A DNA stretch of 64,000 nucleotides from Cephalothrix simula (lineage: Eukaryota; Nemertea; Palaeonemertea; Archinemertea; Cephalotrichidae), in contig JAXIUW010240284.1 of NCBI GenBank assembly GCA_035591015.1, positions 48,442 through 112,441 of the forward strand, read 5' to 3'. Made by a program: the position numbers and the translations under genes. The notes beneath the pieces were generated by a model that worked only from the letters and a program-made list of their open reading frames with translations, did no database searches and had not been told where the DNA came from. This document shows, one piece after another, positions 1,343-33,123 of this stretch. How positions within the stretch are numbered: the stretch's first letter is position 1; every line of letters begins with the position of its first letter.

Positions 1343-1458
1343 GCAATTTGAGGGCAGCCTGCGAGCAATTTGAATGAAGTTTATAAGTTATATTAATGAC
1401 TATAGCTAGCCGAACTAATTGCTTTATTTTATAGTCTGATTTTAATAGTTAATAAACT

Positions 1459-2285: not shown

Positions 2286-2305
2286 TTTATTAATTGGTTT
2301 GATTG

Positions 2306-4219: not shown

Positions 4220-4257
4220 GTTAAGGCGATTATCTGGTTTTAGTCTGCTGATTTTTT

Positions 4258-4500: not shown

Positions 4501-4528
4501 ATTATTAATATGTGTTGGCTATAGAATA

Positions 4529-6049: not shown

Positions 6050-6050
6050 G

Positions 6051-16980: not shown

Positions 16981-17010
16981 AATTGGGATATATTGGCTAT
17001 CCATAATAAA

Positions 17011-17126
17011 ATAATAGACAGCCAAAAAAAGATATTATATACTTAAATAAGTTCTCAAGAATAATTTAATTATAGCCAGCTAGCATTAGGCTAATGCTTC
17101 AAAAAGATGCACCTATGCTCTCCAAA
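17011..17126 (+). repeat. Promoter-bearing repeat, copy A
   Basis: First copy of an imperfect direct repeat; the partner is 17353-17467. Shared blocks include the A-rich tract, TATTATATACTTAAAT, AGTTCTCAAGAATAATTTAA, then AGCATTA, GCTGATGC/GCTAATGC and AAAATGATGC/AAAAGATGC. It carries TAGACA (17015-17020)-17 bases-TATACT (17038-17043). Confidence 0.75.
17015..17043 (+). promoter_or_regulatory. Promoter P1 of the phage-derived module
   Basis: TAGACA at 17015-17020, a 17-base spacer and TATACT at 17038-17043. It is one mismatch in the -35 away from its duplicate P2. Confidence 0.45.
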
Positions 17127-17352
17127 CCGGCGCAAGCAGCGCAATTTAGCTTAGGCTATAGGCCAAATACTAGCCAATAAAACATCAGAAAATAATAGCT
17201 AAATCGACATAAAGTTCAAGTAAATCAGCTATAAAAGCAGTAAAAGAACATTGTTTGAATGTTGCTCGGAAGTAGCTGTTGGCTTTTAACGCAAAGGCCA
17301 ACACCAGAGCCGTGCGAGGAAAACTTCTCAATAACAGTCAATACATAAAAAA

Positions 17353-17467
17353 GTAATTGACAACCAAAAAAATATATTATATACTTAAATTAGTTCTCAA
17401 GAATAATTTAAGCTCGGTTGCTTTAGCATTAAGCTGATGCCCCAAAATGATGCGTCTAGACTTCAAA
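17353..17467 (+). repeat. Promoter-bearing repeat, copy B
   Basis: Second copy of the imperfect direct repeat at 17011-17126, starting 342 bases downstream of the first. Conservation is highest across the -35 to +20 region, which suggests that the promoter is what is kept. Confidence 0.75.
17357..17385 (+). promoter_or_regulatory. Promoter P2 of the phage-derived module
   Basis: TTGACA at 17357-17362, an ideal 17-base spacer and TATACT at 17380-17385. This is one of the best sigma70 matches in the window, pointing at the terminase gene with no intervening gene in the opposite direction. Confidence 0.65.
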
Positions 17468-17663
17468 GTGTAGTTAGTCAAGGTTATGCGTAGCGCATGG
17501 TGCATCTTTGGGTTGGGCATCAAATTAAATTGATAAGCACCAAAACCACATTCCCAAACGGAATAATCAGTAAAATAAAGCAGCCTATTCAGGCAGTTGG
17601 AAAAGTCGGCAAAAGGTTGCTGCTGAAAGATTTTCAGCAAAACAAACATCACATGGTAAAACT

Positions 17664-17912
17664 TTGGGCAATAAATCCTTAACAAAAAGTGCTTCGGCAG
17701 CTAAATCAACATCTAAATCAAAGGTGTTGAGTAAAAAAAATGCCTCAGCGGTAGAGCAGAGGCAACGCTTGAAGAAAAAGCCTTCTAAGCCAGAGAGTCC
17801 TGCTCAAAAAAGTCAGCTGGGGCAGCCGGTACTAAGAGAGATAATTTATCCTAATCGCACAGAGCAAGAGCTTGTTCATCCTGATAGGGTTAGCCCCAGC
17901 CATGACGGTTAA
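17664..17912 (+). CDS. Small basic protein in terminase-small-subunit position
   Basis: An 82-codon frame with TTG at 17664 (or GTG near 17722) and no in-frame ATG. The product is rich in Lys, Ser and Ala in its first half (KSTSKSKVLSKKN, RQRLKKKPSKP) and looks disordered. It overlaps the terminase start by 11 bases. Its position suits a small terminase subunit or DNA-binding accessory, but it lacks a recognisable helix-turn-helix, and the non-ATG start makes it uncertain. Confidence 0.35.
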   Translation: MGNKSLTKSASAAKSTSKSKVLSKKNASAVEQRQRLKKKPSKPESPAQKSQLGQPVLREIIYPNRTEQELVHPDRVSPSHDG

Positions 17913-19143
17913 AGTAAGTTATCTTGCGCACCAAAAAGAAGTTTTCGTTAATAGTAGCAGCTACGTAGTATATGCAAAAGGCCGTCGCTGCGGCGGAACG
18001 ATGGGTGCGGTAAATAGATTGATTGAGCTCGCCTATCTTAAGCCGGGCAGCAGTCATTTGTGGATTGATACTGTTCATCGCAATATTGAGCGCTACGTAA
18101 AGCGTTATTTTGCCCCAATTTTGGCTAATGAAGGCTATGTATGGCGTTCAGCACTAAAGGTATTAGAGTTTCCAACGGGCTCTTATTGCGATTTTGGTTC
18201 TGTTCAAAAACCAGAGAGTTTAGAAGGATTTAGTTATGATTACATTTGGCTAAACGAGGCCGGAATAATTCTTAAAGATGAAGTTTTGTATTATCAAACC
18301 TTGTTGCCGATGCTGATCAACCGCTCTGATAGTCAAATGTTTATTATCGGCACGCCTAAAGGGCCGGGATTATTCTCAAAAATGTATGAGTGGGGCAAGT
18401 CTAGAAGCATGTCTGATTGGATTAGCTATCGTCATCCATCAAAAACTAACTTTTTGCTTTCTGAACGGCAATTAGAGCGCATTAAGCAGAACATGCCCGA
18501 GCGAGTTTATCAGCAAGAGCTACTCGCCAAGTTTGTCGCCGGTGATGGTGCAGTATTTCATGATATTAAGAGCATTGTTACCGCCAAGAAAAAGCACGCG
18601 GCCACGGCAGAATACAGCTATGTGCTAGGTGTAGATTTAGGCCGTTACCGTGACTATACGGTGATTTGGGTTGGTGAAAAAAACACGAACACAGCGGTTT
18701 ATTGCGATAGATTTCAGGGAGTATCGTGGCCAGCTCAAATACAGCGCATCATGAGGGCATCGCAGCGGTTTAATGATGCGCCTATTTATATTGATGCCAC
18801 TGGCCATGGCGACCCAGCTACTGAAAGCCTTTGCGAGGCTGGATTAACTGTGCATCCGGTGGTGTTTAGTGCGCCATCAAAGCGTATTTTGATTGATAGG
18901 CTATCTATTGGCATTGAGCAGAAAAAGTTTGGCATGTATGCCAATAAAGAAACCATAAGCGAATTAGAGAGTTACGAATATCAATATCTGCCCTCGGGTC
19001 ATATTCAAATGAAGGCTCGGGGAACAGGACACGATGATTGCGTTGTGGCATTAGCCTTGTGCTACTTCGGCATGATCAGCGGTGGTAATGACTACATCTT
19101 AGGCAGAAGAATCTTTACAGATGATGTATTTGGGTATTTATAA
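17902..19143 (+). CDS. Phage terminase large subunit
   Basis: The DNA-packaging motor ATPase/nuclease, 413 residues from ATG 17902 (an upstream TTG at 17872 is less likely). The ATPase half has AKGRRCGGT at residues 25-33 as P-loop and IWLNEAG as the Walker B/catalytic Glu region. The nuclease half is RNase H-like: VDLGRYRDYT with the first Asp near 245, YIDATGHGDP, and GTGHDDCVVAL with the last acidic pair near 378. In the P-loop the usual GK[ST] lysine is replaced and a lysine sits at the front (K26), as in some known terminases. The reading frame is full length. The C-terminus overlaps the portal gene by 23 bases. Confidence 0.85.
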   Translation: MTVKVSYLAHQKEVFVNSSSYVVYAKGRRCGGTMGAVNRLIELAYLKPGSSHLWIDTVHRNIERYVKRYFAPILANEGYVWRSALKVLEFPTGSYCDFGSVQKPESLEGFSYDYIWLNEAGIILKDEVLYYQTLLPMLINRSDSQMFIIGTPKGPGLFSKMYEWGKSRSMSDWISYRHPSKTNFLLSERQLERIKQNMPERVYQQELLAKFVAGDGAVFHDIKSIVTAKKKHAATAEYSYVLGVDLGRYRDYTVIWVGEKNTNTAVYCDRFQGVSWPAQIQRIMRASQRFNDAPIYIDATGHGDPATESLCEAGLTVHPVVFSAPSKRILIDRLSIGIEQKKFGMYANKETISELESYEYQYLPSGHIQMKARGTGHDDCVVALALCYFGMISGGNDYILGRRIFTDDVFGYL

Positions 19144-20320
19144 AAAACTAAGTCAAAAGCTCAAGTTGGGGGGCAACAAGAATATTAATTTAGCTTGGGC
19201 AGATGTTGACAAAATAACCAGTGGCAACGCTGGCCTTGACCTGCAGAATGCTAAGTATGTTTACCCACGCATGCTGAATGATGAGCAGATTAGTGCGCTA
19301 TTGTCATTGAAGCAGTCATTTATTACGGCACGCAAGTGGCGTTTTGAGCATGACAGTCAAGATCCATTGCAAAGCAGTTGCGCTAAATTTTTTAATTTTG
19401 TGCTTACGCGTCAAATTGAGGGTTCGCTTAATGGGATTATTCGAAATCTGTTGACAGCGCAGGTTAGTGGTTTTTCTATACTAGAGAAAATCTATGGCAG
19501 CATTGAGTGGCAAAATAAAACTTTGTGGGGGATTAAGTCTCTAAAACTGCGACCAGCGCACTCTTTTAGGTTTATAGTTGACCAAAACGGAAGCGTACAA
19601 AAGCTAATTCAACAGCAAGATAATCTTGATGTAGAGCTGCCCTATAAGCACTTTGTGCATTACGTTAATCGTTCCGAAATCAGCCCTCATTACGGCGAGT
19701 CAGATCTCAAACCCTGCCATAGACATTGGGTAGCCAAAGAAAAAATCTATAGGCTGTGGGGCATTTACCTAGAAAGAATGTCATCAGGCTTTATTCATGG
19801 CAAGGTCAGCGGCCAAATATCGCCTAAAGACAGAGAAGAGCTAAAGCGGATTCTACACAGTGCCGGTGAGCGTACGTCAATCATCACTCCGGCGTCGGTA
19901 GATTTATCGCTGGTCAGTGCGCCCTCAACCGATGCGTTTGAAAGAGCGATTAGTGCTCGTGATAAAGCCATTGCCAAGGCGTTGCTCGTGCCTAATCTGC
20001 TGGGTTTTTCTGAACAGGGAACAACGGGCAGCTACAGCCAGAGCAAAGTTCAACTAGAGATGTTTTTGATGGTGATGAATAGCATTACGGAATCAATCTC
20101 TGAAACCTTGAATGAGCAATTGTTTCGTGAATTAGCTTTTTGGAATTTTGGTTTAGAGAAGTATCCATTATTGGCCTTTGACCCTCTAAGCGAATCTCAA
20201 AAGCAGCAGATGATTGACACTTGGCTAAAAGCCGTCTTTGGTAATGCTATCAGCACTAGTTCAGCCGATGAGGCTCATATCAGACAATTATTGGGCTTTC
20301 CACAAACAGGCTCCGCCTAA
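19121..20320 (+). CDS. Phage portal protein, Mu gp29/DUF935-like
   Basis: The dodecameric portal through which DNA enters and leaves the head. The 399-residue protein has the DUF935-like order: an LKQSFITARKWRFEH segment, a region YGESDLKPCHRHWVAKEKIYRLW, then DKAIAKALLVPNLLGFSEQGTTGSYSQSKVQ near 280-320. This last segment is typical of Mu-type portals. It follows the terminase in the canonical packaging order and is complete. Confidence 0.8.
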   Translation: MMYLGIYKKLSQKLKLGGNKNINLAWADVDKITSGNAGLDLQNAKYVYPRMLNDEQISALLSLKQSFITARKWRFEHDSQDPLQSSCAKFFNFVLTRQIEGSLNGIIRNLLTAQVSGFSILEKIYGSIEWQNKTLWGIKSLKLRPAHSFRFIVDQNGSVQKLIQQQDNLDVELPYKHFVHYVNRSEISPHYGESDLKPCHRHWVAKEKIYRLWGIYLERMSSGFIHGKVSGQISPKDREELKRILHSAGERTSIITPASVDLSLVSAPSTDAFERAISARDKAIAKALLVPNLLGFSEQGTTGSYSQSKVQLEMFLMVMNSITESISETLNEQLFRELAFWNFGLEKYPLLAFDPLSESQKQQMIDTWLKAVFGNAISTSSADEAHIRQLLGFPQTGSA

Positions 20321-20339
20321 ACCATTGCTAAGAGTATCT

Positions 20340-21386
20340 ATGAGCACAAAACGCATATTTATAGCCGAAATTTTTAGGGTTGGTTGCTGGAATAACCATA
20401 CCTTCGGCCTGAAAGAGCTTGAAGAAATACAGGCAAACTTTTATCGCCTTAAAGACTGGCTTATTCCGCCCTTAAAAATAGGACACTCGCCGCAGCAAAC
20501 ATTGCTAGGACAAGCTGATGGAGACCCTGCCCTTGGTCAGGTAACAGAGCTTCATATAGAAAAAGACCGCTTGTTGGCGTTGTTTTCTGGTGTTCCGCAA
20601 ATTGTGTACGATGCTATTCAAGAGAATCTTTATTCTCAAGTATCCGCAGAAATATTTATTGACTACACATACAATGGTGCCAAATTGGGGCGAGTACTCA
20701 AGGGAGTAGCCATTTTGGGCGCAGACCTGCCCGCCGTTAATGGTTTAAGTGATCTAAGCCATTATCTATCAGCAGGAACTACTGCGCCATCAAACCTAAC
20801 CAAGGGTTTAACAAATTGTTACACCCAAACTTTCACCCAGCATTTACAGCCATTTACTAACAACCATGAAGAGAAATTCACCATGAAAAATAAGCCAGAT
20901 AATCCTAATATTCTTGCTCAGTCTGTTGATGGAGTTAGCCCGTTGCCCGGCCCCGAGCAACCCGCTAGTGATCCCCAAAGCATCATCAAGCGTTATCGTG
21001 AAATTAACGAAGTTTCTGTATTAATTAGGCAACTCACCGGCAAAGGCTTACTGCTGCCGCATGTTGCTCAAACTATAGAAGAAAACTTGCTCACGCAGCT
21101 TAATCAACCCTTTGATGGTTCAGAGATTAAAATCAACCTGCCGCTAAGCGTGCTTAAAAAACTATTAGGTAGCTTTGATAAGCAGCTGCCTCAAACAGAG
21201 GTGGCCTTGTCGCAAATAGAGCAGCCCGCACTTGGCGCAAAAAACGTGTCTGAACATTTGGCACGCAAGGCATCTAACCTAATGATTAAACGTGGAATTG
21301 ACTACGAAGTCGCTGCGGAGTTCGTGTTGCAAGAAGACGGCTCTGTAGTTAACGCTTATAAACAATTTATTAAAGGAGAAGGCTAG
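20340..21386 (+). CDS. Prohead protease with C-terminal scaffold, Mu gpI-like
   Basis: A 348-residue protein from ATG 20340; upstream in-frame codons overlap the portal gene and are less likely. The N-terminal half (IFIAEIFRVGCW, LIPPLKIGHSP, QVSAEIFIDYTYNGAKLGRVLKGVAILG, LPAVNGL) resembles Mu gpI-type prohead proteases. The C-terminal half is hydrophilic with Gln/Leu-rich helices, as expected for a scaffold that is removed on maturation. The assignment rests on position and these motifs; the catalytic residues were not pinned down. Confidence 0.68.
   Translation: MSTKRIFIAEIFRVGCWNNHTFGLKELEEIQANFYRLKDWLIPPLKIGHSPQQTLLGQADGDPALGQVTELHIEKDRLLALFSGVPQIVYDAIQENLYSQVSAEIFIDYTYNGAKLGRVLKGVAILGADLPAVNGLSDLSHYLSAGTTAPSNLTKGLTNCYTQTFTQHLQPFTNNHEEKFTMKNKPDNPNILAQSVDGVSPLPGPEQPASDPQSIIKRYREINEVSVLIRQLTGKGLLLPHVAQTIEENLLTQLNQPFDGSEIKINLPLSVLKKLLGSFDKQLPQTEVALSQIEQPALGAKNVSEHLARKASNLMIKRGIDYEVAAEFVLQEDGSVVNAYKQFIKGEG
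20883..21386 (+). CDS. Probable internal in-frame scaffold start within the protease gene
   Basis: ATG at 20883 is in frame with the protease (codon 182). It is preceded by GAAGAGA at 20868-20874 with an 8-base gap, a good ribosome-binding site. Mu gpI/gpZ and lambda C/Nu3 use exactly such a nested scaffold start. The product would be 167 residues: a Pro/Gln-rich linker and helical scaffold. Confidence 0.5.
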   Translation: MKNKPDNPNILAQSVDGVSPLPGPEQPASDPQSIIKRYREINEVSVLIRQLTGKGLLLPHVAQTIEENLLTQLNQPFDGSEIKINLPLSVLKKLLGSFDKQLPQTEVALSQIEQPALGAKNVSEHLARKASNLMIKRGIDYEVAAEFVLQEDGSVVNAYKQFIKGEG

Positions 21387-21389
21387 ACC

Positions 21390-22181
21390 ATGTCTAAACA
21401 AAAAACTTTTACAATCAATTCTGGCAAGGATTTAAGTAAACCAGAGCACCTCTACCGAGCAATCACCTTTAATGGTGATGCCTTTGCCAATACAGCCAAT
21501 GAGGCCATGGGCAATTTGGTGTTCGGTGCACCGGCCAATGCTAATATTGAGGTCGCCTATTTTGGATTAATGCAGTTCAGAGCAGCTTCTGATATCAAGC
21601 AAGGCGACTTTATAAGCGTAAGTTCAGGTGGTTACTATAGCAAGGCGGCTTCGGGAAGCTATGCCGTGGGTCGCTGCATTGAGCATGATGTTAGCGCGGG
21701 CTGCATAGGTCAAGCCCTGTTCAACTTTACAGCCTATACAAGCATTGCGCCTAGCCCGCTTGCCCGATCAGGCAAGGCTAACTCACCAAACCCAGATGCT
21801 CAAGACGAGCCAAAGACTGAAGACACTGACGCAGCCGACCAGCCCGACAGCGAGCAGCCGAAGACCAGCAACCCTGCCGGTGAGTCTCAACCCAACGGCG
21901 AACAGTCGGAAACCAGCAACTCCGCTGGTGATGCTCAACCCAACGGTGAACAGCCGAAAACCAGCAACCCTGCCGATGAGTCTCAACCCAACGGTGAACA
22001 ACCGAAGGCCAGCAACCCAGCTGATGAGTCTCAACCCAACAGCGAACAGTCGGAAACCAGCAACTCCGCTGGTGATGCTCAACCCAACGGCGAACAGTCG
22101 GAAACCAGCAACCCTGCCGATGAGTCTCAACCCAACGGTGAACAATCTGCAGCATCTAATCAGGATAAGTCAGACCAGTAA
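21390..22181 (+). CDS. Accessory head (decoration-like) protein with 16-residue tandem repeats
   Basis: A 263-residue protein with a strong ribosome-binding site (AAAGGAGAAGG) upstream of ATG 21390. Residues 1-125 resemble small head-decoration/DUF2190-like proteins (AEVAYFGLMQFRAASDI-like beta-rich segments, VGRCIEHDVSAGCIGQALF). From residue 153 to the end lie seven units of a 16-residue repeat with consensus NGEQSETSNPADESQP. The repeats are acidic, Ser/Thr/Asn-rich and likely disordered. It sits between protease and capsid, the normal place for a decoration protein. Confidence 0.65.
   Translation: MSKQKTFTINSGKDLSKPEHLYRAITFNGDAFANTANEAMGNLVFGAPANANIEVAYFGLMQFRAASDIKQGDFISVSSGGYYSKAASGSYAVGRCIEHDVSAGCIGQALFNFTAYTSIAPSPLARSGKANSPNPDAQDEPKTEDTDAADQPDSEQPKTSNPAGESQPNGEQSETSNSAGDAQPNGEQPKTSNPADESQPNGEQPKASNPADESQPNSEQSETSNSAGDAQPNGEQSETSNPADESQPNGEQSAASNQDKSDQ
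21846..22178 (+). repeat. 48-bp tandem repeat array inside the accessory head gene
   Basis: Six complete 48-bp units beginning at 21846, 21894, 21942, 21990, 22038 and 22086, and a partial seventh from 22134. Two unit types alternate: SETSNSAGDAQP at units 2 and 5, and K/E-TSNPADESQP at the others. The unit length is a multiple of three, so copy number can change without loss of frame. Confidence 0.95.
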
Positions 22182-22246
22182 TCTGCGCTGATAAATATAA
22201 ACCTACCGAATGGTAGTCATTAATCTAACCAAAATTGCGAAAAACT

Positions 22247-23221
22247 ATGGAAGAATTACAACAACTTAAACCACAGCTTGATTATCATCTGGCTAATGTG
22301 GCCTTGAATTATAACCCAAGTCATTTTATTGCTGGAAGATTTTTTCCGGTGGTAGAGGTTCCTAAGCAGTCGGATAATCACGTTATTTTCTCTAAGAAAG
22401 ATCTTTTCCGGCATGAAAATACACGCCGCTCACGTGGAACTGAAGCCAATAAAATAACAACCAATATTTCTAATAACTCTTATTATTGCAACAACTACGC
22501 TCTTAAAGTAGAGATAGCCTTAGAAGATCGCATTAATGCCGCAAGTGAATACTTAATGCATCTAGAAAAAATGCACGTGCGCCGCTTGCAAGAAGCATTA
22601 TACCTAGACTGGGAAGGCCGCCTTGCCAATCTGTGTCTCAACAGAAACACGCAGTCCAAAGAAGCGAGCAACTCGCCCATAACCGTAAAAAATCCCAAAA
22701 AATCGTGGTCAAGGGCTGAGGCTAATCCTCTTGATGACGTCTTAGAGGCCATTGATGCCATAGAGCAAAATACTGGCTACCGGCCTAATAATGTTCTTTT
22801 TTCTGGTAAGGCATGGCAGCTGTTTAGACGTAATGAAAGGGTTATCCAACGCAGCACGCCGGTATCATTGGCTCAAAGCAAAATCTATCCCAGTGTAGAG
22901 CAGGCCAGTACCTTGCTTGAAACTAAGGTTTTAGTGGGCAATTCTTGGGTTAATCCAGTAGCAACCAAGTCAGGCATCAAGCCTATTTGGGGCAGTAATG
23001 TGATTGTTTATTACACACCAGAGACGGCATCTACTCATTCGCCATCGTTTGGATACTCTTTTCGCTGGACGCAGTCTGGCCTGCCAAATATGCAGGTAGA
23101 GCGACACCCCTTCAATAGCAGAACTCACTGTTATGAAATAGAAATTGGTTATTATCAAGATGAGATTATAACGGCTCCCGACTTGGGATGCATTATCAGC
23201 AATGTTGCTGATGCTGATTAA
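22247..23221 (+). CDS. Phage major capsid protein, HK97-fold type
   Basis: A 324-residue protein from ATG 22247 (a TTG at 22235 is also in frame). Features expected of HK97-fold capsids are an N-arm with FAGRFFPVVEVPKQSD-like text, a central helix-rich region, NTGYRPNNVLFSGKAWQLFRRNERVIQR (the P-domain spine region) and a C-terminal beta-rich tail. No obvious cleaved delta domain is present in the first 20 residues, consistent with a separate scaffold. Position after protease and decoration genes supports the call. Confidence 0.78.
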   Translation: MEELQQLKPQLDYHLANVALNYNPSHFIAGRFFPVVEVPKQSDNHVIFSKKDLFRHENTRRSRGTEANKITTNISNNSYYCNNYALKVEIALEDRINAASEYLMHLEKMHVRRLQEALYLDWEGRLANLCLNRNTQSKEASNSPITVKNPKKSWSRAEANPLDDVLEAIDAIEQNTGYRPNNVLFSGKAWQLFRRNERVIQRSTPVSLAQSKIYPSVEQASTLLETKVLVGNSWVNPVATKSGIKPIWGSNVIVYYTPETASTHSPSFGYSFRWTQSGLPNMQVERHPFNSRTHCYEIEIGYYQDEIITAPDLGCIISNVADAD

Positions 23222-23233
23222 TCTTAGTAACTA

Positions 23234-26074
23234 ATGTTCAATAAAGCGTGGCGCAATATGCAACAATCATTACACTTTGTAATTTACTGTGCCGGAATAC
23301 CTTTTAACGGCAACAACATTGAGCACAGTCCGCAAGGCTTGGGTGGTTCAGAAAGTATGGCCTATTACCTTGCTTTGGGGTTGGCAAAGATGGGTCATCA
23401 GGTTGATTTATTCACTAGTATTCCTAGAGATGCCGAAGGTGTATGGAACGGAGTGCGTTACCACAGCATCGGCAAGCCTAGTCGTCAGCAGCCTTTGGGT
23501 AATAGTTTTGATGATTTTGCACGCCACGTTCCTCATGATGTTTTAATTATGCAAAGGTTACCCATGGCCTTTCAGCATAGCTTTGCATCAAAGATAAACT
23601 TGTGGTGGGGGCATGATCTAGCCCTGCCTCAAGACTATGAGGCGATGTGTCAGCAAAAATGGAATATAGATGCCTTCGTGGTTACCAGTCAATTCCACCG
23701 CAAACAGCTTTCCGCAGTGCATAAGCTGCCTACCGATGCGATTGAGGTTATTGAAAACGGGGTTAATCTCAATCTTTATGGCGAAGCATCGGGTAATTAT
23801 GTAAGTCGTCATCAAAACGGCCTTATGGTCTACAGTTCCAGACCAGAGCGTGGCTTAAAAAATCTGCTCAAGCCTCAAGGCATTATGGAGCAGCTGCTAA
23901 CAAAAGCACCTCAGTTGCGGCTGGTTATTTGCAATTATGACTTAGTTACGGGTGCTACCAAAGACTTTTATGATATTTTGCGCCAGCGTGCCAGTAAGCT
24001 TCCTAATGTGGTGTGGCGTGGTGCGCTGTCTAAGATTGAGCTAGCAGAGCTTATGCAGAAGTCATGGCTGTGGGTGTACCCGGCAACCTTTGAAGAGGTA
24101 AGCTGTATTTCGGCGATGGAGGCTCAAAGTGCGGGCTTGCCGGCACTAACCACCGATTGCGGAGCGCTTACCGAAACGCTAGCGAGCGGTGGAGCAGTGC
24201 ATATTGCGCAGCAATCTAATGATTGGGAAGAGCAATTTTCCAATCAAATAGTAGCTCTGCACAAAGATCAAGAGCTAGCGCATGGCCTGCATATCAAGGC
24301 TTTGCAGCGTTCATTCAGTTATAACATTGAGCAGTTAAGTATAAAGTTTCAAAACTTGGTAGAAAAATGCTTCCGCAAGCGTTGCCGTAATCCGATAACT
24401 TTGGCCAACCACTTGGCGACCAAAGGCGACCTTGAAGGGATGCACGCCGTTCTTCAAACTACAGTTGAAAAGCACAGGGATTGCTTTAACCCGCAGCCTC
24501 GCCTGCTAGACGATGAATCGGCTGTTCTGCCCACAGAATTGCTACAAGCACTGCACTTGGAATTAGAGCGCCTTAGCCCGCAGAGCAAGGTATTGCTCTA
24601 TGACCTTGGCACGGCCGCCCAAACTCTTCTTGAGCATAAAACAACTCGCTTAGATGTAGATATTATTGAGCCGCATAGTACCGAAGAACAACGTTCAGCA
24701 ACACCTCTGCAGCAGCCAGCACGCATAGATGGTAATGCCGCCGAGCCTAATCCAAATCTGGTTGAAGGCGAAGACTACTCGGTGATAATTGCTCAGTTGC
24801 GCTCAACGAATCCCACCGAATTATTAAATAAGATCAATGGCTATTGCGCTAAGGACGGAACAATATATCTTTTGGTGCCATGGCAGCAACGTGCCAGCCA
24901 AGAGGTGCCATTGATCTTAGAGAAGAATGACTTAGTCAAAATCTTTGCGCAATTCTCAGGGCTTAGCATCAATTATGTTCCCTTGCGCTCAACGCTTGAT
25001 GAGCAGCCCCGAGGCTATCATGTATTGCGCTATTGCGCCCAGCATCAGTCTCAGGCTGAAGCAGTAAATTGGTGGCAAAAAAAACACTATCATGCACCAC
25101 GGCAAACTCTATCAGCCTGTATTCTTTATTCTAAAACTCCAGAATCTCTGCGGCGGACTTTGAATAGCCTGCAAGGCATTGCCCAGCAGATAATCATCGG
25201 CATTGATGCTAAGCATGGTAATGAGGCAGACATAGATGGCCTAGTCAAAGAGTTTGGGGCTCAAACCATCAGGCTCGCCTCACCCCTAGAAACGGGTTTT
25301 TCAGCTGCTCGCAATACACTAGTAAAGGCAGCTTGGGCTGACTGGATTTTGTGGATTGATGATGATGAAGAGTTACAATGGGCTCAACGCATATATAACT
25401 ATTTGAGGCCAAACACTTTTAATGCGCACTCACTGCGTCAGCTCCATTATTCTGTAGAGCCGGCCGGAGTTCTAAAAACAGATTATCCAACACGCTTATT
25501 CAGAAACATCGGCAATATTCAATTTTTTGGCTACGTTCATGAGCATCCTGAAACAGAATTAAATAAGGGGTTAGGTGAAGTTATTGTTCTGCCCGATGTA
25601 GCCATTGTGCATAATAGTTATTCTACTGAAAAAGAAAGACGGCGACGCTTTTGGCGCAATCTGCCCCTTATGCAAAGAGATCGCCTAAAGTTACCTCAGC
25701 GTAATTTGGGCAAAATGCTGTGGATGCGTGATTTAACTTATCTTAATCGCTACGATATTGAGCAAAACAAAGCGTCACAAATAGGCCAGCGTGCTGATGA
25801 GATTATTCGGCTCTGGCGTGAACTTGTGCATGATGGCCAAACACGTTTAGTGCTAGAGTCATTGCCTTTTTATTCAGAGGCGGTGCAGCTTATTTACCCA
25901 CAGCCGGTTAATTTTGAGGTACAAATGTCGGCCGAGCAATCTAATATAATTAGCTCTGCAGATAATAATAAATCTGTTCAAGGGGCTTTTCAGACTAATC
26001 ACGATATTAAAACCCTAGTTGAGTTATTGTTTACTGAAACAACTCACAGATTTGCCGAGGTGCCCAAACTATGA
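23234..26074 (+). CDS. Double glycosyltransferase (GT4-like plus GT2-like) in the head operon
   Basis: A 946-residue protein 12 bases after the capsid gene. Residues about 14-385 are a GT4-like GT-B domain with GLGGSESMAYYLA (about 35) and YPATFEEVSCISAME (about 282; the E-x7-E donor site). Residues about 450-600 look like a degenerate methyltransferase-type Rossmann fold (LLYDLGTAAQTLLEHK, then LLVPW) without a clear SAM motif. Residues about 625-900 are a GT2 domain with ACILYSKTPESLRRTLNS and WIDDDEE near 707 as the DxD metal site. It overlaps the next gene by 4 bases. Likely acceptors are the head or tail proteins; this is inference. Confidence 0.8.
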   Translation: MFNKAWRNMQQSLHFVIYCAGIPFNGNNIEHSPQGLGGSESMAYYLALGLAKMGHQVDLFTSIPRDAEGVWNGVRYHSIGKPSRQQPLGNSFDDFARHVPHDVLIMQRLPMAFQHSFASKINLWWGHDLALPQDYEAMCQQKWNIDAFVVTSQFHRKQLSAVHKLPTDAIEVIENGVNLNLYGEASGNYVSRHQNGLMVYSSRPERGLKNLLKPQGIMEQLLTKAPQLRLVICNYDLVTGATKDFYDILRQRASKLPNVVWRGALSKIELAELMQKSWLWVYPATFEEVSCISAMEAQSAGLPALTTDCGALTETLASGGAVHIAQQSNDWEEQFSNQIVALHKDQELAHGLHIKALQRSFSYNIEQLSIKFQNLVEKCFRKRCRNPITLANHLATKGDLEGMHAVLQTTVEKHRDCFNPQPRLLDDESAVLPTELLQALHLELERLSPQSKVLLYDLGTAAQTLLEHKTTRLDVDIIEPHSTEEQRSATPLQQPARIDGNAAEPNPNLVEGEDYSVIIAQLRSTNPTELLNKINGYCAKDGTIYLLVPWQQRASQEVPLILEKNDLVKIFAQFSGLSINYVPLRSTLDEQPRGYHVLRYCAQHQSQAEAVNWWQKKHYHAPRQTLSACILYSKTPESLRRTLNSLQGIAQQIIIGIDAKHGNEADIDGLVKEFGAQTIRLASPLETGFSAARNTLVKAAWADWILWIDDDEELQWAQRIYNYLRPNTFNAHSLRQLHYSVEPAGVLKTDYPTRLFRNIGNIQFFGYVHEHPETELNKGLGEVIVLPDVAIVHNSYSTEKERRRRFWRNLPLMQRDRLKLPQRNLGKMLWMRDLTYLNRYDIEQNKASQIGQRADEIIRLWRELVHDGQTRLVLESLPFYSEAVQLIYPQPVNFEVQMSAEQSNIISSADNNKSVQGAFQTNHDIKTLVELLFTETTHRFAEVPKL

Positions 26075-26445
26075 CCACCTACGCATCATTAGCAGAATTC
26101 AAAAATCGCTACCAAACCAATCTTGATGACGACCACATTGGCGAGCATTTTTTGCCCTACGCAGCAAGACGGGTTGATGAAATGTTAGCGCAGTACTTTG
26201 AGACGCCTTTTGAGGCAGATAACCTAACCGTTAAAGATTTGACGATTGATATAGCCTATATGCTAATTGTCAAGCGCAGCAAAAATTCATCTAATTATGA
26301 TGACCTAAAACAGTCAATTGAGCAGCGTATTGAGGCACTTATCAACGGCTCGCAAGCCATGATTACCAGCTCTGGCCACAAGATTACCTCTAAATTAAGC
26401 ACTGATTGTGTGTGGAGTTCACAATCAACAGAAAATGCAGACTAG
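26071..26445 (+). CDS. Head-tail connector, Mu gp36/DUF1320-like
   Basis: A 124-residue helical protein. MTTYASLAEFKNRY, HFLPYAARRVDEMLAQYFETPF and DLTIDIAYMLIVKR fit the gp36/DUF1320 adaptor fold that binds below the portal. ATG overlaps the glycosyltransferase stop. A 103-bp spacer without a gene follows. Confidence 0.7.
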   Translation: MTTYASLAEFKNRYQTNLDDDHIGEHFLPYAARRVDEMLAQYFETPFEADNLTVKDLTIDIAYMLIVKRSKNSSNYDDLKQSIEQRIEALINGSQAMITSSGHKITSKLSTDCVWSSQSTENAD

Positions 26446-26548
26446 CTTTGGCTCAAACACAAAACTAGCTAAAAAAGCAAGCACTTACTAGGCACTATAG
26501 GCTAGCTGAGAAGGGCATTATTAACAAAAGAATACCTAAAATATCAAC

Positions 26549-27001
26549 ATGTTTAGCAATCATAGCCACATATTAGCCGGTGAGGTTTTTAATCGGCTGC
26601 TACAACTTGATGGCGAACTTGGCCATGGCGCAAAAATAGAGCTAGGTTCGGCATTGAATGATGACCCAAACTCTACGCCATGGGTTGGGATTAGAGTGGG
26701 CAAATGTAGTGCCGAGCCGTATCTAATTGGAACATCGGGCTGGAAGGCGAAATCTGAGGTACTTGTCTACGCTCAAGCCGCCAGCCTTCAAGATGATTCA
26801 GATGCCCACGCTAAGCTAGAAATCCTGCAAACTAAGCTGGTTAAGGGATTGCTCTGGCCTAATCAGTATCAATCTCATGGGGCGCAGATTATTAAAATTG
26901 AGGTAGCGCCCTTCAAACAAACCCCAGAGCAAGAAGCACTGTTCATAACTACTGAGCTCTGTTTAACATTTACCTTTATCATTCAAACACATTCAACCTA
27001 A
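26549..27001 (+). CDS. Tail completion/neck protein, Mu gp37-like
   Basis: A 150-residue protein. GIRVGKCSAEPYLIGTSGWKAKSEVLVYAQ and the closing ELCLTFTFIIQT resemble the alpha/beta tail-completion (gpU/gp37-like) proteins that cap the tail tube at the head junction. The place between connector and tube gene is the standard one. The family match is weak and rests mainly on order and size. Confidence 0.5.
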   Translation: MFSNHSHILAGEVFNRLLQLDGELGHGAKIELGSALNDDPNSTPWVGIRVGKCSAEPYLIGTSGWKAKSEVLVYAQAASLQDDSDAHAKLEILQTKLVKGLLWPNQYQSHGAQIIKIEVAPFKQTPEQEALFITTELCLTFTFIIQTHST

Positions 27002-27010
27002 GTAAGCACC

Positions 27011-27982
27011 ATGTATTATTCACAAAGCGGACAACTGGCCTTTGCCTTTCAAACTGCGGCTGATGCAGAAACTACCAGTAATATGATTAATATGCCTATA
27101 GTATCTGAGTCGATTGAAGATAAATTCACACCTCTCTATAACAATAACCTCAGCGGTGGCCTACACCAATCGGTGCTGTACAACGGCCCGCATGAGATTA
27201 GCGGTGAGGTAGTCACTGAACCGTCATTGACTACACTGTACTACATGTTTTCTGCGGCCACTAAGCCATACTCGGGGCATCTAAATAAGATTTCTAGTAA
27301 TTATTCTTATGGTTTTGTGTACAATAAAGATACTACAGATTTTAGTGATAATTTGGCTTTGCATCCATTTACTTTGGGCATTAGGCGTGGTGGCGGCGTT
27401 ACTGATGTTTACTATGATATGCAGGCCACAACCCTACAAATGGAGCTGGCCCACGGTCAAATGCTAACCGCCACTATGGGTGTTGTGGGGCGTAGAAGCT
27501 CCACTAGCAACAATTCACCAAAACTGACTGACAATCAACACGCAGCATTGCCATGGAATTCGTTTCAACTGCATGTAAACAGTCATGAAGTGGCTTACGT
27601 GCGCCAGCTCTCTTTGAAGATAGACAATCAACTTACGGCACTGCACACTATAAGTGGCGGCAACTATCCATATTATATAAAGCGCTCCGGCAATATTAAA
27701 GTGAGCGTTGAGGGTAGCATTATCTATCACAACCGGGATCTACTTAATTATTACTCTAATAATAGTGCCTGTAACTTCACCTTAGTTAGCACTAATCAAG
27801 ATGGCAACCTAAGCCTTAACATCCCCAATATGGTGCTCACTGAGTATTCCCCGCATCTAGAAGGGCAAGGCCTAATTGAGGCAGATTTTAATGCCACGGC
27901 CACCACGCCCCTTGGTTCTAGCCAGCCTCTGTTTAGAGCTGATTTAACATCTACTAAGACTGATGCCTCATCTATAGTCTAA
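27011..27982 (+). CDS. Major tail tube protein
   Basis: A 323-residue beta-rich protein. The pattern SESIEDKFTPLYNN, a Gly/Ser-rich middle, HPFTLGIRRGG, and the near-repeat GSIIYHNRDLLNYYSNN/CNFTLVSTNQDG suggest a two-domain tail tube protein of a long-tailed phage. Its location directly before the frameshifted tail-assembly chaperone is a strong positional clue. It is longer than lambda gpV (246). Confidence 0.65.
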   Translation: MYYSQSGQLAFAFQTAADAETTSNMINMPIVSESIEDKFTPLYNNNLSGGLHQSVLYNGPHEISGEVVTEPSLTTLYYMFSAATKPYSGHLNKISSNYSYGFVYNKDTTDFSDNLALHPFTLGIRRGGGVTDVYYDMQATTLQMELAHGQMLTATMGVVGRRSSTSNNSPKLTDNQHAALPWNSFQLHVNSHEVAYVRQLSLKIDNQLTALHTISGGNYPYYIKRSGNIKVSVEGSIIYHNRDLLNYYSNNSACNFTLVSTNQDGNLSLNIPNMVLTEYSPHLEGQGLIEADFNATATTPLGSSQPLFRADLTSTKTDASSIV

Positions 27983-28133
27983 AGAACTATAAAATCAGTA
28001 AATTAAGCATTATGGTAAGTGCTATAGTAAGCATTATAGTAATTATTATAGTAAGTATAATTCTAAAGTTATTGTTCGGTGATGCTGTTGAATCGGCGTT
28101 GTCGGTAAATCTTAATCATTAACTGCATAAACC
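27983..28133. repeat. Spacer with TATAGTAAG short repeats
   Basis: Between about 28010 and 28060 the words ATGGTAAGTGC, TATAGTAAGCAT, TATAGTAATTAT and TATAGTAAGTAT follow one another. This is the same style of degenerate spacer repeat seen beside housekeeping genes in this window. Confidence 0.6.
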
Positions 28134-28523
28134 ATGGATATAGGATTAAATTGGCGACGCCAACAATCTGAAGTGTGGCCAGATGTAAGCTATGCGCTGC
28201 GACCGCTAAAGGTATGGGCTTTCCAAGAACTAGTTAGCCTCTGGAGTAGCTCTGATGAACATGCTAATTTTAATCAGGTTACCAAGAACTTAGCGGTTAT
28301 ATCTGCGGCTGGGCGTGTTTTTAGTGAGCACGTTCGTAACTTGGAGGGCTTGCATATTATTGATGAGCATAACTCACGTGAGGCCATCTCTATAGAAGCA
28401 CTGACTACCGAAGCACTGTGTGCGCCTCTTGCCGCTGAGATAATTGAGCGGCTAATTTCAATATCTAACTTAGGGGATGAAGAAGAAAAAAACTCCGCCG
28501 GGCAGTCAGACGCTGGAGCTTAG
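28134..28523 (+). CDS. Tail assembly chaperone, short form (gpG-like)
   Basis: A 129-residue acidic helical protein (MDIGLNWRRQQSEVW..., EALCAPLAAEIIERLISISNL). It lies between the tail tube and tape measure genes, where the G-type chaperone that coats the tape measure is always found. Its last codons include the slippery heptamer at 28487-28493, so it is also the first part of a longer frameshift product. Confidence 0.72.
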   Translation: MDIGLNWRRQQSEVWPDVSYALRPLKVWAFQELVSLWSSSDEHANFNQVTKNLAVISAAGRVFSEHVRNLEGLHIIDEHNSREAISIEALTTEALCAPLAAEIIERLISISNLGDEEEKNSAGQSDAGA

Positions 28524-28753
28524 GCCTTACAATAGATGCCAAGCCCCGATTGGCTGCCCAAAATTGTGCATACTGGATTAGTTGGTTTACTCTTTGCCAC
28601 CAGCTAATAGATGAAAATTGGATTAGATTAGAATGGCCTACAGCTAGTCCGCTGCTTGAGCAGCCAACGCTGTTGGTCAAAATATTCACATGTATACAGG
28701 ATGAGTGGAATACCCTCCGCAAAAACAAGCTCAATCAGCAAGTTAGGCGTTAG
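28134..28753 (+). CDS. Tail assembly chaperone, -1 frameshift form (gpGT-like)
   Basis: If ribosomes slip by -1 on A AAA AAC (28487-28493), reading resumes at 28493 and stays open to TAG at 28751-28753. This gives a fusion of 120 plus 86 residues. The downstream part (NCAYWISWFTLCHQLIDEN, then KNKLNQQVRR) is the T-like extension; its own ATG at 28550 has no good ribosome-binding site. The zero frame at the heptamer is exactly X XXY YYZ. This is the lambda G/GT arrangement, here inferred from sequence. Confidence 0.78.
28487..28493 (+). other. Programmed -1 ribosomal frameshift site
   Basis: The heptamer A AAA AAC lies in the zero frame of the chaperone gene (codons GAA AAA AAC), ten codons before its TAG. 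A short CTCC...GGAG pairing begins at 28493; it is weak and may not be the stimulator. Confidence 0.78.
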
Positions 28754-29492
28754 ATTAATCTTAGGTGGGCTGTGTATGATGCTCAGCAGCTTAATTTTGG
28801 GCTGCACAACCACGGTATCAACGGTGATTTTGGTGCCTTTGGCTGCAGAACAAACAACAGATTCGCTGACTGTAGCCCCTAATCGCAATGGAAACAACCT
28901 GGGCACTTTTAATGCGTTTCGCAGCACCTCAACGGCGACTCTAATTACTCGTGAGCTGGTTGACAAACTACAACAAGAGAATAATCGGATGTTGCAACGT
29001 TCGCCTGCAGAAATTGAGGCCGTAACCGCCAGCATTGATGAGTTTTTTGATCAATATGTTCTATTCTATGGTCGCTTTATCAGCGATTTTTCGCATGGCG
29101 CAAAGCTAGACTGGTACGATGTCGGCCATATCTATCTTATTGACGACAAGGGCGACAAGTATTTGCCAGAGCTGATAATTGATGCCACTGAACAAAATGA
29201 AGACTTGCGCCTTAAATACCAACATGTACTGATTAGAAATCAAGCCTTCCTTGAACCCAAGCAAGAAGATAGCCTTATCGGTAATTCGTACTTTGGTGCA
29301 GCATGGTTAATTTTTCCGAGGCAAGCTATTAGTTCTCAAGTACGAATGCTGGCCTTAAACTTTGTGGCCTTTCAACGCTTAGCTATCTTTACGTGGTTGT
29401 TTGATAAAGACTATAAAATCAATGCTCCACAGCTAGATAACTCTGCCAGAGGTGGCCTCCCCAGACTTTGGCGTGCTCCTGACAATAATTAG
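28701..29492 (+). CDS. Putative lipoprotein encoded within the tail operon
   Basis: A 263-residue protein from ATG 28701, overlapping the chaperone fusion end. The N-terminus is a lipoprotein signal: a basic start, hydrophobic core (VRLILGGLCMMLSSLIL) and lipobox LILGC before TTTVS. The mature part has a Ser/Thr/Asn-rich linker and then a globular alpha/beta region (FYGRFISDFSHGAKLDWYDVGHIYLIDDKGDKY, then SYFGAAWLIFPRQAIS). I do not recognise the family. A lipoprotein between chaperone and tape measure is unusual and suggests a cell-envelope role such as exclusion or particle release. Confidence 0.65.
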   Translation: MSGIPSAKTSSISKLGVRLILGGLCMMLSSLILGCTTTVSTVILVPLAAEQTTDSLTVAPNRNGNNLGTFNAFRSTSTATLITRELVDKLQQENNRMLQRSPAEIEAVTASIDEFFDQYVLFYGRFISDFSHGAKLDWYDVGHIYLIDDKGDKYLPELIIDATEQNEDLRLKYQHVLIRNQAFLEPKQEDSLIGNSYFGAAWLIFPRQAISSQVRMLALNFVAFQRLAIFTWLFDKDYKINAPQLDNSARGGLPRLWRAPDNN

Positions 29493-29512
29493 TATCTCTA
29501 TAATTGCTAGAA

Positions 29513-30622
29513 ATGGTTTCATCAACAATGCCGCAACTATCGCAGTTGCCAAAGGATAATTCTGCGCTTGATGCAGTTCACAAGACCTTTGGCAAAATCA
29601 GAATATCCAGTCAACTAACCCGGCAATCATTGCTAGAGTCTGGTAAAAAGCTATCTCAATTCAAGGATTTATCCTTGAATGCTGGAGAATCTACCGCTCA
29701 ATCCTTAGCAAACATAACTGCAGCCATTCAGTCTAGCGGAGCAGCAATGCGTAACTCAATTAATGATGCTGGCTACGCGGTCCAAAATATCCAAAGTGGC
29801 ACAACTCAGCAATTAAGTCTATCAATACAGCAGTTAAGCGATTTTGGAGACTTATTGTCTGACTTTCAGCTACAAAACTTGCTTAATGCTGAAGAACGTC
29901 TTAGTGCTAGCTCTGAGCGTCTCTTTATGAGTCAACAGCGCATGTCTGAGCGCACGGCAAATAGCCAACGGCAGCTAAACAATCAGATGGCCGTTGACAA
30001 TAAGGCGCATTATGATCAAATGGGCGTAACCATAAAAAATGCCCATAATCTGTGGGCAACGTCTATGGCAGGCTATCTTAGTGCCAATGCCAGTGCCTAT
30101 AAAACATATAACTCAAAGTTGGTTTCTTCTTCAAAAACTACCAATAAAAAACTATCGGCCCAACTAAAGCTCAGCTCAGTTGCTCAAAGCATCATGAATG
30201 CTTATACAGCGGCTAACAAGACTATGGCCGCTTATCCTGCGCCACTAGCGCAAGTAATGAGTGCCATCGTGCTGGCCAAAGCTCTAGATAATGTTAGTAA
30301 AATTCAATCGGTAGCGGCGGCTCATGGCGGACTGACTAACGTTCCGCATGAAGAAACCTATTTGCTGCAACGTGGTGAACGAGTGCTTAGCCCCAACCAA
30401 AACCGTGATCTAACTCAATTCATGTCGTCATCGCCTCGTAGCGGAGGTGCTCGCATAGATACAGTCAATATCCACGTACTAGAAAATGTGGATAATGCTG
30501 ATTCTCTACTAGAAATAGAGCCAGACAGATTACGTGTTCTAGTGGCTGAAAAGATTGTTCCGGCACTCAACGCTTTGCAAACTATGGGGTTATACAATCC
30601 ACAGGAAACCCGCACTAATTAA
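29513..30622 (+). CDS. Tape measure protein, short
   Basis: About 369 residues from ATG 29513, Ala/Gln/Ser-rich and helical throughout, with many coiled-coil-like stretches. The C-terminal AAHGGLTNVPHEETYLLQRGERVLSPNQN is the segment commonly seen at the end of phage tape measures. In long-tailed phages, tail length scales with tape-measure length at about 1.5 angstrom per residue, so this one predicts a short tail of roughly 55 nm. Two hydrophobic segments (AQVMSAIVLAKAL and around AAIQSSGAA) are modest. Confidence 0.75.
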   Translation: MVSSTMPQLSQLPKDNSALDAVHKTFGKIRISSQLTRQSLLESGKKLSQFKDLSLNAGESTAQSLANITAAIQSSGAAMRNSINDAGYAVQNIQSGTTQQLSLSIQQLSDFGDLLSDFQLQNLLNAEERLSASSERLFMSQQRMSERTANSQRQLNNQMAVDNKAHYDQMGVTIKNAHNLWATSMAGYLSANASAYKTYNSKLVSSSKTTNKKLSAQLKLSSVAQSIMNAYTAANKTMAAYPAPLAQVMSAIVLAKALDNVSKIQSVAAAHGGLTNVPHEETYLLQRGERVLSPNQNRDLTQFMSSSPRSGGARIDTVNIHVLENVDNADSLLEIEPDRLRVLVAEKIVPALNALQTMGLYNPQETRTN

Positions 30623-30624
30623 CT

Positions 30625-32685
30625 ATGACCGATGATTGGGTAATCAACCCTCCGCAGCATAAATTTACCATCGGTAGTAGCGACTACTCTGACTATGTTC
30701 TCAGCTGGCCGGCCTTACAGAAAAGTCAGTCTGGTCTACGCCTTGACACTATGTTTGTTGAACTGGCCGAGAGCAAAGATCTACTTGCATACTTAAACCA
30801 ACCCAACCAACTGCCTTTAAGCTGCGCCATGGGTTACGTGCATAACAGTCAATACAAAACCATAATGCGTGGCAGCGTAGACAGCATATTATTTAATCAT
30901 AGTCAGCAAAGACTGCGCCTCAAGGTCAGTAATCCCATAAGCAAGTTACTACAAGTAACTTTAGGCTCTTCAGGCAGTGTTTTAGATTTATCATCATCAA
31001 GCATTACTCCAGCCGACTTAACTTGGAAGTTACTCACAGAAAAAGCCGGCTTTGACAGCAGAACGGATAGCTCAAATACAGATATAGACTACTCTAGCTG
31101 GCTGGCATGGCGTAATTATAATCTAGCGATGTCAAGTACTTGTCGAGCATACTTTAGCGGTGAAAGTATTTATGAGGTTATTGATAGCCTGCTCAGCATT
31201 GAAGACGTTAACGGCTCATTTCAAGATAAAATGCGCTTTACGTTGCTTAATAACGACTTTGAGACTGTTGCTAATCAAATTAATTATGCAGAACTGATCA
31301 ATCTAGGTTATGAAGTCAGCCTTGACCACGTCTACAACCTGTTTACCATCAATCACTTACAACCAGGTTTTGATATTCCACCGTATCCGCATAAAACTAC
31401 CTTCAGCAATTCAGAATCGATGCTTAGTTATGGTATACGCCCTAAAAACTATTCTCTGAAAGGGTTTTGGTATGAAAATCTAAGCATTCCAATTGCTGCC
31501 CAAACTCAGAGCTACACACAACCGTCAACTAGATATAGAATATCGTTACCAATGCATATAGGCATAGATATGTCTATTGGCGAAACTTTAAGTATTGCCA
31601 AGAATAGCAATTACATACATCCCCATGCTCTGCGTATTTTAGAGAACAAAACAGAACCCAAGGTGGGCCTAACATCGCTTGTGCTAGAAAGAGCGCAGCG
31701 CAAGGCGTGGCAGGTTATTGGCAAAAATGCTGGCAACTATGTTATAAAACCCGGCTCATTAACAGAGATAGACAGCGGTCATTATCTGGCTATTGCCGAT
31801 TTTGGTCACTACCTACTGCGCAGTGAAGGTCTTGAGAAACCTTTTGCTAAAGATAAAAGCAATCTTAATCCAGATCAAATACTGTTCATGGGCAATGGTA
31901 CCGTAGTGGCTATGAGTGGCAGAGGCTCGCTAGAGGCAAGTGTCTCAACCGATAATGGCAAGAGTTTTACACCAGCCAAGGTTCCACCCTATAAATATGG
32001 GTATACCATAAAACACCTAGCACAGGTGTCATCAAATACCTGCATAGCCGACTATTCTTGGGGTAATGTGCTTATATCTAATGACCAAGGGAAAAATTGG
32101 AAAACTCATCAGGCCTTAGGTTATGAATATGGCTTTACACACTTTATAAAGCCTGATGCGCAGCGATTATGGGGTTGGGCATCAAAACTTGATGCTAGCC
32201 AAACATTAATCATGGAAAGCATTGATGAAGGCCAAAACTGGCAAACAAAATTTACCTTACCGGGCGATAATAAAGGCCATGTAACAGATTGCTTTAGAGT
32301 AAACAGTGGTTATATTTTTGCGTTTGATGGAGAACAAAACCGAGGCATGTATCGGCTGACTTATGATATTGATCAACATACAGTGCCGCAAAGTCTCTCA
32401 GTTACTAAAGTAACTGCACAGTCAGTTTTATTTACCAGCATGGTTGATGTTTCGTCAACTCTTTGGAGTTGTTCACGTTACGGCAAATTAAAAAATGCAG
32501 ATATTTATCAATCTAAGAATGATGGTCAAAGCTGGTCATTATTTGACTATGCTCCTGATCATGAAATGGAGCTGGTAGATGCTCAATCAAATCAAGTGCT
32601 GGGCTTGGCCGGCCATAGCGGTTTAGATTCTGCGTACTCATACTGGACAAAGTGGCGTGATCGGTATTTGTCGCTGCCATCCTAA
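30625..32685 (+). CDS. Tail-tip protein with C-terminal Asp-box beta-propeller
   Basis: A 686-residue protein. Residues 1-350 are a structural tail-tip/baseplate-hub-like part (beta-rich, LKVSNPISKLLQVTLG, then SLPMHIGIDMSIGETL). Residues about 360-680 hold four Asp-box motifs (S-x-D-x-G-x-x-W/F): STDNGKSF about 441, SNDQGKNW about 485, SIDEGQNW about 532 and SKNDGQSW about 629. Such repeats form BNR/sialidase-type beta-propellers that bind or cut glycans. The catalytic residues of true sialidases were not found, so binding is the likelier role. It starts two bases after the tape measure stop. Confidence 0.7.
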   Translation: MTDDWVINPPQHKFTIGSSDYSDYVLSWPALQKSQSGLRLDTMFVELAESKDLLAYLNQPNQLPLSCAMGYVHNSQYKTIMRGSVDSILFNHSQQRLRLKVSNPISKLLQVTLGSSGSVLDLSSSSITPADLTWKLLTEKAGFDSRTDSSNTDIDYSSWLAWRNYNLAMSSTCRAYFSGESIYEVIDSLLSIEDVNGSFQDKMRFTLLNNDFETVANQINYAELINLGYEVSLDHVYNLFTINHLQPGFDIPPYPHKTTFSNSESMLSYGIRPKNYSLKGFWYENLSIPIAAQTQSYTQPSTRYRISLPMHIGIDMSIGETLSIAKNSNYIHPHALRILENKTEPKVGLTSLVLERAQRKAWQVIGKNAGNYVIKPGSLTEIDSGHYLAIADFGHYLLRSEGLEKPFAKDKSNLNPDQILFMGNGTVVAMSGRGSLEASVSTDNGKSFTPAKVPPYKYGYTIKHLAQVSSNTCIADYSWGNVLISNDQGKNWKTHQALGYEYGFTHFIKPDAQRLWGWASKLDASQTLIMESIDEGQNWQTKFTLPGDNKGHVTDCFRVNSGYIFAFDGEQNRGMYRLTYDIDQHTVPQSLSVTKVTAQSVLFTSMVDVSSTLWSCSRYGKLKNADIYQSKNDGQSWSLFDYAPDHEMELVDAQSNQVLGLAGHSGLDSAYSYWTKWRDRYLSLPS

Positions 32686-32730
32686 CTTACGTCTCCATCT
32701 ATTTACCTAATTAATTTAACCAGAAGCATC

Positions 32731-33123
32731 ATGAACTTTAAGCTGTGGAAAAAAGAGCTTGGTGAAAAAAGTGCTATAACCATCCGTCCATTGTGGTCAT
32801 TCAAAGAAGACGGCAGACTGATTGATGCACAACTACGCTCGCTAGAAGGCCGTCTTTTCAATTATGTGTGGGGAAGCTATCGCACCTTCAAAATACCGCT
32901 AAAGTTTGTAGATTCGCAGCAACGCAACATCCTTACCGAGTGGTGGAAGAAGCAAAGCCTACTTACGCTGCAAATAACTACTGAAAATGGAAAGAAAGAC
33001 CTTATATACTGTCGCCTACTTAATAAAAGCCTGCCATTATCGGGCTTAAGCATTCCCTACACAGAACTTTATGAAGGCGAACTACAGCTTGAAGAAGTCT
33101 ATGCCTCTAGCTCTAGCAATTAA
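32731..33123 (+). CDS. Small tail-tip protein, last gene of the phage-derived module
   Basis: A 130-residue protein with FKIPLKFVDSQQRNILTEWWKKQSLLTL and a Ser-rich C-terminus. It looks like a beta-sandwich minor tail protein, but I cannot name the family. It is on the same strand as the module, and after a 49-bp gap the tatB-like gene begins. No lysis gene follows. Confidence 0.5.
   Translation: MNFKLWKKELGEKSAITIRPLWSFKEDGRLIDAQLRSLEGRLFNYVWGSYRTFKIPLKFVDSQQRNILTEWWKKQSLLTLQITTENGKKDLIYCRLLNKSLPLSGLSIPYTELYEGELQLEEVYASSSSN

Follow-up and report, generated by a model that had tools for sequence, protein, structure and literature searches.

The closest described systems are the RcGTA-like gene transfer agents (Rhodogtaviriformidae), in which a head-tail cluster comes with no genes for replication or integration, inheritance is vertical, and the tail is short (49 nm in RcGTA; PMC9662315). 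Sections of a 2024 review present the agents of Bartonella, Brachyspira, Desulfovibrio, and Methanococcus as separate domestications of different phages, and hold that gene transfer agents (GTAs) far from the Rhodobacter type are not yet reliably detectable from sequence (PMC11841831). For the SAR324 lineage, no report of a GTA was found among open-licence PMC papers. This article describes a module from that lineage, lying in a 64,000-nucleotide stretch of DNA (“the window”) presented under the name of the nemertean Cephalothrix simula. The module has in common with the RcGTA-like agents the three features listed above, as read here from genes alone. It differs from them in phylum and adds a glycosyltransferase and a propeller tip, while the Bartonella, Brachyspira, Desulfovibrio, and Methanococcus agents belong to other hosts and are set beside it by description alone.

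An earlier note on this DNA had proposed a candidate GTA. On balance, and with moderate assurance, we favour a vertically inherited domesticated particle that is most likely a GTA. Domestication is well supported, because the ordered genes are intact, the neighbourhoods conserved, the capsid clade free of viruses, the proteins under constraint, and parts of the particle remodelled; gene transfer itself appears likely. The proposal of the earlier note is partly supported: it gains from conserved chromosomal places and constraint, and loses from a linked M15 peptidase in two of four relatives and from a locus that varies. As in a GTA, the head, tail, and terminase genes are intact and derive from a tailed phage, with no replication or integration genes of their own recognised. 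They also stand apart from viral homologues, the capsid by its tree and the large terminase subunit (TerL) by a search that, at its sensitivity, gave no viral relative.

An RcGTA capsid has presumably been deposited in the PDB. Profile searches of that database with the module capsid and TerL returned no RcGTA chain; the single significant match of the capsid was 3bjq, and homology to the RcGTA capsid was not detected in this search. RcGTA-like agents favour energetically cheaper amino acids, whereas the SAR324 module, compared for its capsid only, goes the opposite way: proteins of the capsid clade have 4.99 carbons per residue, against 4.89 in homologues (54 and 64 non-independent proteins, with P0055 and P0056 excluded from both groups).

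The module and its bacterial host

Phage packaging, head, and tail genes form an intact module at 17.35–33.12 kb of the window, with 14 recognised genes on one strand (Table 1). It is 15 kb in size, its genes all lie on the plus strand and contain no internal stops, and the intergenic gaps range from −41 to 151 nt. PHROGs and Pfam recognise TerL, the portal, the protease, the decoration-type protein, the capsid, the adaptor, the tube, and the tape measure protein, while the completion, chaperone, tip, and last genes were placed through synteny with a relative. Family searches recognised no integrase, replication, or lysis genes among the module proteins, nor among 24 scanned flanking proteins (a set that excludes at least 13 ORFs at 49–64 kb). 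Direct repeats between 15500 and 34500 fall into at least 60 families; in the 20 largest of these, no long pair brackets the module. The earlier note had described the architecture well: the intact same-strand packaging, head, and tail genes, the lack of recognised mobility and lysis genes and of recognised attachment repeats, and the flanks (a carbamoyltransferase gene and tatB, found here as argF and a TatA_B_E gene) all reappear. It had overlooked the glycosyltransferase, a 48-nt repeat array, the likely lipoprotein gene, and, upstream, a promoter-like element present in two copies. No RNA family was matched when the window was scanned, and two large host ORFs at 34325–37630 (467 and 633 aa) are without an NCBIfam match.

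Table 1. Features of the module and its flanks (positions in the window).
Feature	Position	Strand	Remarks
argF	16030-16980		upstream flank of module
Promoter-like element, copy 1	16999..17069	+	TAGACA-17-TATACT at 17015-17043
Promoter-like element, copy 2	17341..17411	+	TTGACA-17-TATACT at 17357-17385
Lysine-rich 82-aa ORF	17664..17912	+	occupies TerS-like gene position of four relatives
TerL, terminase large subunit	17872..19143	+	PF03237, PF17289; true start probably at 17902
Portal, Mu type, 399 aa	19121..20320	+	PF06074; without MuF domain
Head maturation protease	20238..21386	+	
Decoration-type head protein	21390..22181	+	C-terminal 16-aa repeats; weak head-scaffolding match, E 7e-5
Major capsid protein	22235..23221	+	phrog_1005, E 1.7e-53
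Glycosyltransferase, 946 aa	23234..26074	+	GT4/GT1 N-terminal part, GT2-like C-terminal part
Head-tail adaptor, Mu gp36-like	26071..26445	+	weak, E 4e-4
Tail completion protein	26549..27001	+	position and synteny
Tail tube protein	27011..27982	+	PF18906
Tail assembly chaperone, zero frame	28134..28523	+	synteny
Chaperone −1 frame extension	28492..28753	+	86 residues
Likely lipoprotein	28776..29492	+	lipobox read by eye; homologue in G003 only
Short tape measure protein, 372 aa	29504..30622	+	
Tail tip/hub protein	30625..32685	+	C-terminal BNR beta-propeller
Last tail gene of module	32731..33123	+	phage homologues
TatA_B_E gene (tatA/B-type)	33173-33433		downstream flank of module

The upstream element is 71 nt long, and its two copies, 342 nt apart, each carry a sigma-70-like site. 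The region holds 37 such sites against a shuffle mean of 33.8, and the two in the element rank best; no further copy of the element turned up when the 8.6-Mb assembly was searched. Separately, a palindrome (AGCATTA-N3-TRATGC) follows each promoter-like site at a distance of about 40 nt, at 17082–17098 and 17425–17440, and could be an operator. It was dropped as evidence: it occurs only at these places in the window, yet 4 of 100 shuffles equal that (the count has three rows, one palindrome being scored on both strands).

To which organism does this module belong? The RpoB of the assembly has top database matches at 67% identity, and the named sequences near it, within the 120 best of the 8000 that were scored, come from metagenome bins labelled SAR324 or “Deltaproteobacteria”. 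A 12-row clade of the RpoB tree (support 100/100) unites the window with the genomes G001, G002, G003, G007, and G010, and on the basis of RpoB the host is assigned to the SAR324 lineage. A further capsid gene of phage type (PF05065, E 1.2e-28) is present elsewhere in the assembly, at G000:C352:4772-5614, from which it follows that other phages visit.

A capsid search reached 300 proteins with E values of 0.001 or lower, 120 of them among the matches listed, and one scan of a genome collection found four loci, all in SAR324 or Deltaproteobacteria bins. The distribution was surveyed in 52 genomes of the GTDB phylum to which G003 belongs. Four of these (G001–G004) gave strong capsid matches and two more gave weak ones, and strong TerL matches likewise occur in four (G001, G002, G003, and G007), with weak ones in three more; taken together, five of the 52 hold module genes. 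All five are among the seven genomes with an RpoB identity of at least 64% (G001–G004, G007, G008, and G010, the RpoB of G004 and G008 being partial). The other two, the drafts G008 and G010, gave no module match. The remaining 45 genomes, of which seven lack an RpoB match and are unplaceable, contain no strong match.

Parts remodelled against related phages

Uncultivated phages in IMG/VR display the same portal-protease-decoration-capsid-glycosyltransferase-adaptor order, with capsids 31–42% identical to that of the window. This order was found in 16 viral loci (L002–L013 and L018–L021), 15 of which have the glycosyltransferase; the remaining locus stops short of its position. Since near phage relatives exist, the steps of domestication can be compared part by part: a shorter tail, a lost portal domain, a swapped terminase, and an added tip and lipoprotein.

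The portal measures 743–805 aa in five phage loci and 399–443 aa in the bacterial modules, and the one phage portal scanned, that of L002, has a MuF domain. The tape measure protein is similarly reduced, from 672–808 aa in four phage records to 372 and 329 aa in the bacterial modules, which retain its C-terminal part. The tail tip has instead grown, from 392–400 aa in the phages to 686 and 693 aa: it has gained a BNR/YCF48-like propeller, while the remainder is hub-like. The structure model of the tip has a modest pLDDT (54.7 overall, highest in the propeller) and low whole-chain TM scores, so it is read at the level of domains only. Four classified phage TerLs fall in other groups than that of the window, and two phage records that were scanned contain polymerase, helicase, or primase genes.

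A lipoprotein-like gene precedes the tape measure gene in both the window and G003, the two proteins being 27% identical. At the corresponding junction in three phage records there is no ORF of at least 70 aa, and no homologue of the lipoprotein was found at E 0.01 among 590 candidates. Its structure model was unusable (mean pLDDT 34.6).

The decoration gene ends in a 48-nt tandem array (21843–22144, 6.3 copies) encoding a Ser/Thr/Asn-rich repeat of 16 residues, and its product reaches 263 aa in the window vs. 133 aa in the G002 and G003 homologues. Such repeats, together with the adjoining glycosyltransferase, suggest a sugar-coated head. G001 has no glycosyltransferase between capsid and adaptor.

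Packaging, release, and the likely use of the particle

The window has no recognised small terminase. TerS-like genes are present in four relatives (G001, G002, G003, and G007), and their proteins look complete and could give sequence choice; the 82-aa ORF of the window has no recognisable homology to these genes, nor a homologue in G003. In the PDB, the TerL profile hits phage TerL domains of solved structure, which we take to be Thermus-phage proteins, and the TerL of Thermus phages P74-26/P23-45 is among the named phage matches (28% identity, covering 68% of the protein). The phages whose terminases it resembles fill their heads by headful packaging. Without strong site choice, such a motor could take up host DNA, a mechanism already proposed for known agents (PMC11841831).

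With regard to release, the upstream side of the module could be read in four relatives, and an M15 peptidase gene adjoins it in two. In G003 this gene (L033:11143-11832) sits next to the terminase genes, and its homologue in G002 likewise adjoins the module; none is present beside the module in G001 or G007. It is a candidate lysis gene in these two relatives. A linked lysis gene is what the earlier note had named as contrary evidence, and here these two relatives would speak against its reading. The window itself has no M15 peptidase beside its module and no recognised endolysin, and the two lysis-type families searched in the assembly (Peptidase_M15_3 and Phage_lysozyme) gave no match.

How might such a particle work? 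We picture a former tailed phage retained as chromosomal genes in one branch of the SAR324 lineage. The operon would be transcribed from a strong promoter that is probably switched on in few cells, and the capsid and protease would build the head. TerL, resembling the headful-packaging terminases, would then load the head with host DNA, no recognised small terminase being there to select phage DNA. The glycosyltransferase may attach sugars to the repeat-bearing end of the decoration protein and so coat the head; the short, noncontractile tail would attach through its propeller tip to a surface glycan of kin; and the lipoprotein may have a role in release or in self-protection. Taken further, the module could represent an independently evolved SAR324 family of GTAs, with a sugar-coated repeat-brush head made by a built-in glycosyltransferase, a halved and propeller-tipped tail, and an envelope lipoprotein serving release, self-protection, or reception; this fuller picture is tentative, and we lean slightly against it as a whole. 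Points against a GTA are the costlier capsid residues, the lack of a recognised small terminase or endolysin in the window, the two of seven close relatives without a match, and the existence of two neighbourhoods.

A domesticated phage particle could also have a different job, e.g., killing, or delivering proteins or sugars instead of host DNA. Conservation and remodelling do show use by the host and not which use, and the added propeller tip and lipoprotein gene have no explanation. We nevertheless think this unlikely, as the terminase, portal, and maturation protease have all stayed intact with pN below pS, and a headless killing particle needs none of them. If the particles of the favoured GTA do carry host DNA, GTA-mediated transfer would reach a lineage that is often met in marine metagenomes.

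Chromosomal places, capsid ancestry, and constraint

Homologues of all 14 module proteins, in the same order, are found on a 982-kb contig of G003. There, two sets of genes lie within 80 kb of the module, both inverted: nuoG and nuoJ-N about 18 kb upstream, and argF about 1–3 kb beyond the module end. The window likewise has nuo genes (92–7508) and argF near its module. In G001, G002, and G007 the genes preceding the module are an aminotransferase gene, atpB, and a conserved one of 101 aa, which we take as atpE (the aminotransferase and atpB families were scanned in G002 only). One neighbourhood is therefore common to three genomes and the other to two, which means that the module moved at least once. 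The earlier note had expected the same argF-tatB locus in relatives and counted variable insertion sites, or a linked integrase or replication gene, against itself. The chromosomal places did prove to be conserved, if not always at argF-tatB; they are two, hence few rather than scattered; and no integrase or replication gene was recognised beside the module of the window.

The capsid tree has 56 rows: 35 of the 120 listed proteins, 16 viral capsids, the window, and G001–G004. Half of the rows (28 of 56) form a capsid clade with support 100/99 that includes none of the 16 viral rows. The window capsid groups with P0025, P0001, and P0009 (96/95), and the capsids of G002 and G003 group together (96/93). 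A pattern scan for TerL confirmed none of 84 candidate viral stretches and found no viral relative at that sensitivity. For six-taxon trees of RpoB and capsid, the P0009 capsid and the P0144 RpoB were taken as one contig, and P0004 and P0140 likewise, since the longest contig has equal length within each pair of clusters (1,599,138 and 70,279, respectively). The window and the P0009/P0144 contig split off together in both (80/81 for RpoB and 97/94 for the capsid). Two host splits are missing from the six-taxon capsid tree and are not rejected by it: G002 with G003 (AU p 0.243) and G001 with the P0004 contig (p 0.524). Conserved neighbourhoods and this agreement between trees point to a module handed down vertically with the host genome, though the trees span only six taxa and the neighbourhoods are two.

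Could the module still be a phage or satellite that moves among SAR324 relatives, with a helper phage lending replication, integration, and lysis? The pair of neighbourhoods, the M15 peptidase of G002 and G003, and the second capsid gene of the assembly would fit. This is nonetheless improbable, given that G001, G002, and G007 share the same site despite a TerL identity of 54–59%, that no integrase family was recognised in the module, that the trees agree, and that the 16 viral capsids all stay out of the clade.

A vertically inherited particle is also consistent with the constraint on its proteins, which the earlier note had suggested checking as dN/dS per gene. Constraint was indeed found: in each of the 33 pairs, drawn from seven genes, pN is lower than pS (0.157–0.490 against 0.559–0.920), and with synonymous sites saturated or nearly so, this shows long-kept frames and not a precise dN/dS. 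A defective prophage caught before decay sets in, which would account for head and tail genes without recognised lysis, replication, or integration genes, is accordingly disfavoured already and has little to recommend it, since the same genes persist in relatives whose capsids are about 50% identical, every pair has pN below pS, and a slippery site is conserved.

That site confirms the frameshifted chaperone of the earlier note as real. The slippery heptamer A AAA AAC lies at 28487–28493 in the chaperone ORF of the window, where a −1 slip adds the extension. Slippery sites stand directly before the chaperone stop in G003 (A AAA AAC) and in G001 (A AAA AAA) as well, and the −1 ORFs of both relatives are homologous to the extension of the window.
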